Source: an uncultured Pelagibacteraceae bacterium
Lineage (GTDB): Bacteria > Pseudomonadota > Alphaproteobacteria > Pelagibacterales > Pelagibacteraceae
DNA: 42,769 nt
Assembly (NCBI GenBank): GCA_902604065.1
Contig: CACKXF010000008.1
Location: forward strand, 1-42,769
Direction: 5' to 3'
Shown: one piece after another, positions 31,148-32,650 of the stretch
Numbering within the stretch: the first letter of the stretch is position 1
Layout: each line of letters opens with the position of its first letter
Translations under genes and position numbers: made by a program
Notes under the pieces: generated by a model
Database searches by the model: none
What the model saw: only the letters and a program-made list of their open reading frames with translations
Told to the model about the DNA's origin: nothing

Positions 31148-32443
31148 TTATGCAGCTAAAGCTTGTTCAATATCTGCAATAATATCGTCAGGATGCTCAA
31201 TACCTATGGACAATCTGACATACCCCGGAGTAACCCCTGCCTCTGCAAGCTGTTTATCATTAAGTTGACTGTGAGTTGTTGATGCTGGATGTATCGCTAA
31301 ACTTCTAGCATCACCAATATTTGCTACATGATAAAGTAATTTCAAATTATCAATAAATTTAGCACCAGCTTCTTTAGATCCTAAATCCATTCCAACTAAA
31401 GAACCATAACCACCATTCATATATCTTTTAGCTCTTTCTCTGATCTCCCCTTGGTGATTTGTTGGATAGATAACGTTTTTAACTTTTTTCTGAGATTCTA
31501 AAAACTTAACAACTTTTTCTGCATTAGCACAATGTTGTTTCATTCTTAAAGCAACTGTTTCCAAACCTTGTATAATTTGAAAAGCATTAAACGGTGAAAG
31601 CGGAGCACCTAAGTCTCTTAATAAAACTACTCTTGCTCTAACAGCAAAAGGAATATTAGCTCCAGTTAGTTTAGGAACATCTCTTCCCCATACTGCTCCA
31701 TTATAACTTGGATCTGGTTCATTAAACAAAGGTTGTCTCTTAGCGTCTTTAACCCAATCAAAAGTTCCACCATCAACTATTATTCCACCAATTGATGTAC
31801 CGTGTCCTGCAATATATTTTGTTAAAGAGTGCATAACTACTGCAGCACCATGTTCTAATGGTTTACAAATTACTGGAGCAGCAGTGTTATCAATTATAAG
31901 TGGGATACCATGTTTTTTACCGATATCTGCAACTTCCTTAATTGGAAAAACTCTAAGGTATGGATTAGGACAAGACTCACCGTAATAAGCTCTTGTTTTT
32001 TCATCAGTTAATTTCTCAAAGTTTTTTGGATCACTTGGATCAGCAAATCTAACTTCAATTCCTTGCATTCTTAAAGTATTTTTAAATAAATTTACAGTTC
32101 CCCCGTACAAGTCAGTTGATGAAACAATATTATCACCAGCTTGAGCGACATTCTGAACACAAAATGCTGATGCAGCTTGACCTGAACCAACCGCAACTGC
32201 AGCCATTCCACCTTCTAATGCCGCAACTCTTTTTTCTAGAACATCACAAGTTGGATTCATTATTCTTGTGTAAATATTTCCAAATTCTTTTAATCCAAAT
32301 AAATTAGCCGCTGTTTCAGCATTTTTAAATTGGTAAGAAGTAGTTTGATAGATTGGCACCGCCACAGATGTTGTTGTTGGGTCAGCTCTATAATCGCCTC
32401 CATGCAAACCAATTGTTTCTGGATGTTTAATTTTTTTAGTCAT
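31148..32443 (-). CDS. metY: O-acetylhomoserine aminocarboxypropyltransferase (sulfhydrylase)
   Basis: A 431-residue PLP enzyme of the Cys/Met metabolism family. Lys209 in HSLTKYIAGHG is the Schiff-base lysine and Asp185 in IIDNT contacts the pyridine nitrogen. The length of 431 and the GLHGGDYRADPTTTSVAVPI start favour MetY over the shorter cystathionine enzymes. It joins O-acetylhomoserine with sulfide or methanethiol to make homocysteine or methionine. It has a strong ribosome binding site GGAG seven bases before the ATG, embedded in the 3' end of a SAM-V-like element, and a SAM-II aptamer plus terminator farther upstream. SAM should therefore repress it twice. Confidence 0.95.
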   Translation of the reverse strand: MTKKIKHPETIGLHGGDYRADPTTTSVAVPIYQTTSYQFKNAETAANLFGLKEFGNIYTRIMNPTCDVLEKRVAALEGGMAAVAVGSGQAASAFCVQNVAQAGDNIVSSTDLYGGTVNLFKNTLRMQGIEVRFADPSDPKNFEKLTDEKTRAYYGESCPNPYLRVFPIKEVADIGKKHGIPLIIDNTAAPVICKPLEHGAAVVMHSLTKYIAGHGTSIGGIIVDGGTFDWVKDAKRQPLFNEPDPSYNGAVWGRDVPKLTGANIPFAVRARVVLLRDLGAPLSPFNAFQIIQGLETVALRMKQHCANAEKVVKFLESQKKVKNVIYPTNHQGEIRERAKRYMNGGYGSLVGMDLGSKEAGAKFIDNLKLLYHVANIGDARSLAIHPASTTHSQLNDKQLAEAGVTPGYVRLSIGIEHPDDIIADIEQALAA

Positions 32444-32450
32444 TTTTTTT

Positions 32451-32508
32451 CTCCTTTTTTAGTACTTCGACGAAATGTCAGGTGTACAATATAGTTCAAA
32501 TACCCGGT
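32451..32508 (-). ncRNA. SAM-V-like riboswitch controlling metY translation
   Basis: On the - strand, after the terminator, the leader can form CGGGU/ACCUG, encloses the conserved-looking UUUGAACUAUAUUGUAC, then a small GAC-AUUUC-GUC hairpin, and ends with GUACUAAAAAAGGAG. That end contains the ribosome binding site, seven bases before the metY ATG. This layout is what I recall of the SAM-V class, in which SAM binding buries the ribosome binding site in a pseudoknot. Pairing was done by eye, and a covariance-model scan would settle it. Confidence 0.75.
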
Positions 32509-32519
32509 TTTAATTTTGT

Positions 32520-32548
32520 AAAAAAAAACCACCGACTAAAGCGGTGGT
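32520..32548 (-). terminator. Intrinsic terminator inside the metY leader
   Basis: On the - strand, ACCACCG (32548-32542) pairs perfectly with CGGTGGT (32534-32528) across a 7-base loop and is followed by eight T's (32527-32520). It lies between the SAM-II and SAM-V elements. The 5' arm and loop contain GCTTTAGT, complementary over 8 bases (one G-U) to GCTAAAGC in the SAM-II 3' arm, giving a mutually exclusive antiterminator. Confidence 0.88.
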
Positions 32549-32558
32549 CTAAGACTTA

Positions 32559-32609
32559 ACGCTTTAGCAGGATTTATTAAGCGCCCGCAAGTTGTTTTAA
32601 CTCGGCGCT
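32559..32609 (-). ncRNA. SAM-II riboswitch aptamer upstream of metY
   Basis: On the - strand, stem P1 is GCGCC (32608-32604) with GGCGC (32585-32581). The loop is GAGTTAAAACAACTTGCG, and the 3' arm reads AATAAATCCTGCTAAAGCG. This matches the recalled SAM-II pattern of a GC-rich P1, an A/U-rich loop, then AUAAA...GCUAAA that folds back as a pseudoknot. The promoter starts transcription right at P1. The 3' arm is also complementary to the terminator loop, so SAM binding should favour termination. Confidence 0.85.
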
Positions 32610-32617
32610 ATAATGAA

Positions 32618-32647
32618 ATTATATCAATTTATTGGCTTACTAGTCAA
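32618..32647 (-). promoter_or_regulatory. Promoter of metY
   Basis: On the - strand, TTGACT (32647-32642) and a perfect TATAAT (32623-32618) are spaced by 18 bases. The start is expected near 32611-32609, immediately before the SAM-II P1 stem. The -35 hexamer begins only four bases beyond the stop codon of the upstream VOC gene, so metY is transcribed independently. Confidence 0.65.
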
Positions 32648-32650
32648 TGA

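Follow-up and report, generated by a model that had tools for sequence, protein, structure and literature searches.

The leader of metY in an uncultured member of the Pelagibacteraceae raises the question of how two S-adenosylmethionine (SAM) aptamers of different classes, placed one behind the other with a terminator between them, might control a single gene. Few cells in the ocean are as abundant as those of SAR11, and methionine-making enzymes of these bacteria are described in a passage of PMC5069961 as being run by RNA switches of this sort. The window, by which the whole stretch of 42,769 nucleotides analysed here is meant, belongs to a genome of 872 kb that is 75% complete, and it carries the leader on the - strand at 32647-32444. 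Judging from sequence comparison and computed folding, this tandem SAM-II/SAM-V leader very probably shuts metY off at two levels when SAM is plentiful. An initial annotation, made from the letters of the window, had correctly identified the two aptamer classes and the order in which they occur, the intervening terminator, the controlled gene and the coordinates; the candidate antiterminator pairing and the terminator-less SAM-II/SAM-V arrangement of other SAR11 metY leaders, both treated below, were not part of it.

The gene itself, metY, encodes an O-acetylhomoserine aminocarboxypropyltransferase (31148-32443, - strand; TIGR01326, 568.2 bits at a cut-off of 495.1; also PF01053) and starts with an ATG at 32443-32441. 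Its promoter is of the sigma-70 type (32618-32647, - strand) and is composed of TTGACT (32647-32642), a spacer of 18 nt and TATAAT (32623-32618), as initially annotated; 11 of 12 consensus bases are matched, and two promoter-like sites occur in the leader region versus a shuffle mean of 1.0, so that the promoter alone is weak evidence. Transcription would start at about 32611, and the SAM-II aptamer begins approximately two bases past this inferred start. The upstream neighbour of the promoter is a glyoxalase-family gene (PF00903), and the promoter is located past the stop codon of this gene, which places the terminator hairpin inside the metY transcript. On the other side, 66 nt past metY, there follows on the - strand (31081-28649) a gene whose protein combines FAD oxidoreductase and GCV_T domains; its product resembles dimethylglycine or sarcosine dehydrogenases, and it may share the metY transcript.

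The SAM-V aptamer (32448-32514, - strand) is recognized by the Rfam model RF01826 with 69.8 bits (cut-off 41; E 1.6e-9 over the window) in a match that runs end to end through model positions 1-66 of 66, and it is the sole SAM-V match (32514-32448) in the genome of the window. Its helices, with coordinates read off the sequence and the Rfam alignment, are P1 (32505-32502 with 32483-32480), P2 (32487-32484 with 32465-32462) and P3 (32479-32477 with 32471-32469), and all three covary in those relatives that have no terminator, designated type B below. The proposal that the 3' end of this element is the ribosome binding site of metY agrees with the position of the AAGGAG Shine-Dalgarno sequence (32456-32451), which lies inside that end. 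Pseudoknot-free folds of the SAM-V and SAM-II stretches were not more stable than those of shuffled sequences.

The SAM-II aptamer (32556-32614, - strand) consists of P1, formed by AGCGCC (32609-32604) and GGCGCT (32585-32580), the third strand GAGTTAA (32603-32597), and P2 (32596-32587 with 32568-32558). The Rfam covariance models, which had been named as the means of checking both aptamers, supported SAM-V but not SAM-II, for which RF00521 gave 15.8 bits at a cut-off of 36; yet the element is significant with a model built here, R3 (39.6 bits, E 2.5e-8 over 53 kb), and shows covariation. The E of 0.19 that RF00521 (SAM_alpha) reached in a scan of the window's own genome says little, because genome-wide searches at E up to 10 gave matches in all 14 control genomes as well. 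Other Rfam matches, to RefA1, rimP, sroD and others, seen at a relaxed threshold with about 13-22 bits, are attributed to chance, being far under their own cut-offs. R3 was built because RF00521 also scores the SAM-II aptamer of the HTCC1062 gene bhmT low (15.5 bits) and rises above its cut-off in only one of 20 related genomes; for this bhmT aptamer, a KD of 1.2 uM is quoted in PMC5069961. The training set comprised 12 other SAM-II elements, with the window element not among them and L253 left out, and their SAM-II identity rests on their RF00521 scores (25.3 to 31 bits for ten, 36.8 bits for one and 25.1 bits for one from the window's own genome). The last of these (L258; G000:C13, 11915-11975, + strand) is a second SAM-II element of this genome, and the frame behind it resembles metX. 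The training element from HTCC1062 is probably the metX SAM-II named in PMC2704228.

Over its own genome, the window element was found by R3 at E 4.2e-7, the sole better site being the training element and the next one having E 0.45, and all nine other type A leaders (those with a terminator, like the window) given to R3 were recovered at E 1.7e-4 or better. Two companion models behaved differently: R1, built from type A leaders, recovered 12 of 13 other SAM-II loci with E no higher than 5e-8, its score on the window being no evidence since the window was included in its training, and R2, built from type B leaders, gave the other SAM-II loci weak matches, 12 of the 13 lying between E 0.013 and 1, and none at the SAM-II place in six type A loci or in the window leader. 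These comparisons indicate that the Rfam SAM-II model overlooks most SAR11 SAM-II elements.

How general the arrangement is was surveyed in two collections. From genome contigs, 80 metY loci were kept, nearly all of them labelled as Pelagibacteraceae. The fetched stretch contained a SAM-V core in 75 loci, all with a terminator and thus type A, and no such core in the other five (L049, L056, L058, L086, L088), where another gene lies directly before metY. Within the order, 190 of 397 genomes had a SAM-V match; among the matches listed, 155 loci at 150 places were taken, and R3 detected a SAM-II element just upstream of SAM-V in 153 of these 155 with E no higher than 0.1; the remaining two represent a single place, which reached E 0.12 in another R3 search. 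The metY loci and the loci taken among the matches listed yielded 214 distinct SAR11 leaders in which a SAM-V core could be recognized, every one of which has an upstream SAM-II-like element, recognized by pattern or by eye. They divide into 97 leaders of type A and 117 of type B, L060, L146 and L155 having been typed by eye as A and L164 and L221 as B. L225, which has a variant SAM-V core, stands outside the 214; it was assigned to type B by eye and has an R3 match. L211 is cut by a contig end, so that pattern counts for type B refer to 116 of the 117. By reading frame, type A leaders precede metY (68), bhmT (10) or other genes (19, several of them bhmT-like or short frames), and type B leaders metY (107), mmuM (7) or other, MetY-like frames (3). 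The leaders are related by descent, and these counts are not independent events. A simple scan found no promoter-like site in 35 of the 97 type A leaders.

The paired bases of the SAM-II element, the absence of which from homologous metY leaders would have spoken against the initial annotation, are kept and covary. In 21 leaders less than 88% identical to each other, changes from UA to CG and from UA to AU and GC occur in P1 and P2a, with a covariation score of 0.206 versus 0.100 for shuffled alignments (reached in 0 of 500) and 0.07 or less for slid controls. P1 and P2b were paired in 100% and P2a in 82.5% of the cells, with two-sided changes in P1 and P2a, percentages that are biased toward the SAM-II structure, which was written from these same sequences. 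Among the pocket motifs GAUUU, UUGC and GCUAAA, the window retains the latter two and has GAGUU in place of the first, a G variant present in 47 of the 97 leaders. Its core departs at 32601 (G for U) and at 32591 (C for A), both positions being in the ligand-site list of PMC11508383. Across the 97 leaders, U is combined with A in 48, G with C in 40, G with A in seven and U with C in one, and in L155 the preceding A is altered.

Between the two aptamers lies an intrinsic terminator (32520-32548, - strand), formed by ACCACCG (32548-32542), the loop CTTTAGT and CGGTGGT (32534-32528). Its T tract comprises nine T at 32528-32520, of which eight lie past the 7-bp stem, in accordance with the seven base pairs and eight T reported for it initially. 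The hairpin has a computed stability of -12.4 kcal/mol, equalled by none of 200 shuffles, and two terminator-like sites (one hairpin counted twice) were found versus a shuffle mean of 0.2. The loop reads CTTTAG in 90 of 96 type A leaders, with C or T as the next base in 88 of these 90, and in the same 96 leaders no base exceeds 80% at any of the first six spacer positions. A loop with no task other than closing the terminator could vary freely. The loop is complementary to GCUAAAGCG, the SAM-II strand needed for the pocket, and we infer that the helix between the two serves as an antiterminator (32535-32568, - strand), in which GCTAAAGCG (32568-32560) would pair with CGCTTTAGT (32543-32535).

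Measured as the longest helix that the SAM-II 3' half can form with the terminator, the pairing spans at least 9 bp in 88, at least 8 bp in 91 and at least 6 bp in all of the 97 leaders, and when the eight loop-side bases were shuffled, the observed helix length was reached in 1% of the trials. Leaders with other loops have a shifted helix, namely CCTGCTAA:TTAGTAGG in L220 and L239, CCAGCT:AGCTGG in L131 and L141, and CCGGCT:AGCTGG in L134. The support for the antiterminator thus consists of conservation and two register shifts, classical compensatory changes being absent because the SAM-II strand hardly varies. In the minimum free-energy fold of the 97-nt window leader, SAM-II P1 and the antiterminator helix are formed and the terminator is absent. 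When either structure was forced, with energies that include neither pseudoknot nor ligand, the antiterminator fold of the window had -29.5 versus -26.1 kcal/mol for the terminator fold; over 96 leaders the mean difference was -1.8 (sd 2.8, range -7.4 to 8.9), the antiterminator winning in 69 and the terminator fold being computed as more stable in 27. The loop and forced-fold counts refer to 96 of the 97 type A leaders, since L239 was skipped by the terminator pattern.

The two-level reading would work as follows. With SAM bound, GCUAAAGCG would be held in the SAM-II pseudoknot, the terminator could form and transcription would stop. With SAM absent, the SAM-II strand would pair with CGCUUUAGU, the 5' side of the terminator would be broken and the polymerase would continue. 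On the full-length messenger, SAM-V with bound SAM would hide the Shine-Dalgarno sequence, and the antiterminator would keep SAM-II shut in this RNA, so that SAM-V would be the sensor still active in it. A steep or two-threshold response, as proposed in the initial annotation, may follow from such an arrangement.

An unlikely alternative makes SAM-V the sole regulator of metY. The upstream element would then be what is left of a decayed SAM-II, and the hairpin would either attenuate constitutively or mark where the transcript of the upstream gene ends. The RF00521 score under the cut-off and the core changes at 32601 and 32591 would fit such decay, as would the report in PMC11508383 that SAM-II in the full-length HTCC1062 bhmT RNA did not respond to SAM in vitro; but the bases of the pocket as well as P1 and P2a are conserved and covary, the promoter past the upstream stop codon puts the hairpin within the metY transcript, and the terminator loop is conserved as a complement of the SAM-II strand. 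Still more improbable is a change of ligand: with G in place of U10 and C in place of A20, as PMC11508383 numbers these positions, the SAM-II variant would respond to a compound other than SAM, for instance SAH or a SAM analogue, and the leader would weigh two ligands against each other. The two pocket changes do occur together across the 97 leaders, but the variants track relatedness with few independent events behind the counts, the gene and the second sensor are unchanged, and the HTCC1062 bhmT SAM-V, with a U-to-G change (CAGTTGAAC) at what the shared motif suggests is the corresponding position, binds SAM at 0.5 uM (PMC6061858).

Apart from the two-level control considered most probable for the window, the type A leaders offer some observations downstream of SAM-V. 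Of 95 type A leaders that could be tested, 30 have a downstream stretch complementary over at least 8 nt to the Shine-Dalgarno stretch of SAM-V, as against none of 115 type B leaders; in 23 of the 30, the stretch downstream of SAM-V can also pair over at least 6 nt further down, often at a second Shine-Dalgarno sequence. L120, L134, L222 and L237-L242 are among these leaders, and the window is not. One possibility is that these stretches form a swap hairpin through which SAM-V exerts its effect from a distance. Short frames starting with ATGAACAGAATT and ATGAACGAAAC lie between SAM-V and metY in L067, L075, L087, L148, L237 and others and possibly encode leader peptides.

In type B leaders, represented in HTCC1062 by metY (L121) and mmuM (L122), the SAM-II-like element lies directly 5' of SAM-V. 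R3, trained without type B, finds 10 of 11 such elements at E 0.02 or better, including those of HTCC1062 metY (E 2.2e-4) and mmuM (E 0.02); P2a covaries (UA 31, AU 4), and in P1 a GC is replaced by AU once. Pairing is possible between the pocket strand GCCGAUU and AAUCGGU, a segment adjoining the first SAM-V pair. TCGG, the partner of CCGA in the SAM-II-like element, precedes the SAM-V core by 9 nt in 105 of 116 type B leaders and by 10-11 nt in four more; the other seven lack it. Among eight mmuM leaders it is present in L244, replaced by TTGG in L122 and absent in L142, L143, L153, L154, L229 and L270; in the first five of these six, inspection by eye showed that ATCAAAT can pair with ATTTGAT instead. 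The mean pairing probability of the long-range helix ranges from 0.40 to 0.75 by pair in 39 leaders, 89% of the cells are paired, and no pair is changed on both sides, i.e. covariation is absent. Its formation excludes P1 and the third strand of the SAM-II-like element. That the helix couples the two aptamers is a conjecture, against which the absent covariation and the seven leaders lacking TCGG speak. A more far-reaching proposal, to which we give somewhat less than even chances, is that in SAR11 SAM-V exists only as one member of an obligate pair and that in type B binding of SAM to the first aptamer would free the SAM-V stem, giving a cooperative riboswitch of two aptamer classes.

Outside SAR11 the pairing is not the rule, and SAM-V-like matches beyond the order are few, low-scoring and for the most part unpartnered. 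In a sample of the class, nine further genomes of 385 had SAM-V matches (33-43 bits, two genomes above the cut-off), and a sample of the phylum had none in 398 genomes besides the window's own. The 11 SAM-V loci of these nine genomes include one, L267, with an R3 SAM-II match just upstream; at L266, also outside the order, the R3 SAM-II match is about 650 nt away from SAM-V. L267 (G499:C19, 1526-1348, - strand), from another alphaproteobacterial family, has a SAM-II (R3 E 7.1e-6) separated by about 50 nt from a weak downstream SAM-V match of 34.9 bits and is a possible tandem outside SAR11.

That SAM-II/SAM-V tandems are known from marine bacteria, as the initial annotation stated, is documented in Table 1 of PMC2704228 and in PMC9481103. 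The former lists SAM-II/SAM-V before HTCC1062 bhmT and SAM-V only for HTCC1062 metY and mmuM; passages of the latter count 149 tandems and state that in the original 120, SAM-II is always ahead of a terminator. Type B, with no terminator after the SAM-II-like element, departs from these 120. Since the Rfam SAM-II model overlooks most SAR11 elements, tandem counts resting on Rfam are probably low, and the leaders compared here suggest that SAM-II/SAM-V pairs are commoner than recorded. Neither type B nor the antiterminator is described in the parts surveyed of the literature, including PMC2704228, PMC5069961, PMC6061858 and PMC9481103, or in passages of PMC6429828, PMC4239095 and PMC12452182; the founding SAM-V paper could hold such a description. 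When HTCC1062 is short of sulfur, the transcripts of metY, bhmT and mmuM and the proteins MetY and BhmT rise, according to PMC5069961.

Among individual systems, the SAM-II of Sinorhizobium meliloti metZ (PMC9373788) resembles the window in a predicted end of transcription before a methionine gene and differs in that the abstract does not mention SAM-V. The HTCC1062 metY SAM-V (PMC6061858, 6FZ0) belongs to the same gene and likewise lies at the Shine-Dalgarno sequence, but the SAM-II-like element upstream of it (L121) has no terminator. Well-studied SAM-V leaders may have been examined with half the device cut off. The bhmT tandem of HTCC1062 (L120) resembles the window in aptamer order, in having a terminator between SAM-II and SAM-V, in the 3'-terminal place of SAM-V, and in the same GCTAAAGCG and CGCTTTAG complementarity. 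It differs in its gene, bhmT instead of metY, in the usual U10/A20 core, and in a hairpin and a second Shine-Dalgarno sequence between SAM-V and the gene, whereas in the window SAM-V lies directly before metY. Passages of PMC11508383 report that the SAM-II of this bhmT tandem is silent in full-length RNA and blame the linker; in a word search of the text, terminator and antiterminator were absent. In the numbering of that paper, CGCUUUAG corresponds to 66-73 and the T tract to 82-90. In computed folds of its 73-, 90- and 110-nt transcripts GCUAAAGCG pairs with CGCUUUAG; the antiterminator therefore predicts SAM-II silence and could explain the silence in the full-length RNA. The fit is indirect, since SAM-II was revived by oligos covering the T tract and sequence past it. 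PMC9481103 describes a bi-mechanism kind of tandem with a terminator at SAM-II and SAM-V at the ribosome binding site, and the order in the window, SAM-II, intrinsic terminator and SAM-V at the ribosome binding site, is that of this kind. The window is thus another SAM-II/terminator/SAM-V tandem of the published kind, to which it adds metY as the controlled gene and, for the published puzzle of the silent SAM-II, a concrete candidate antiterminator.
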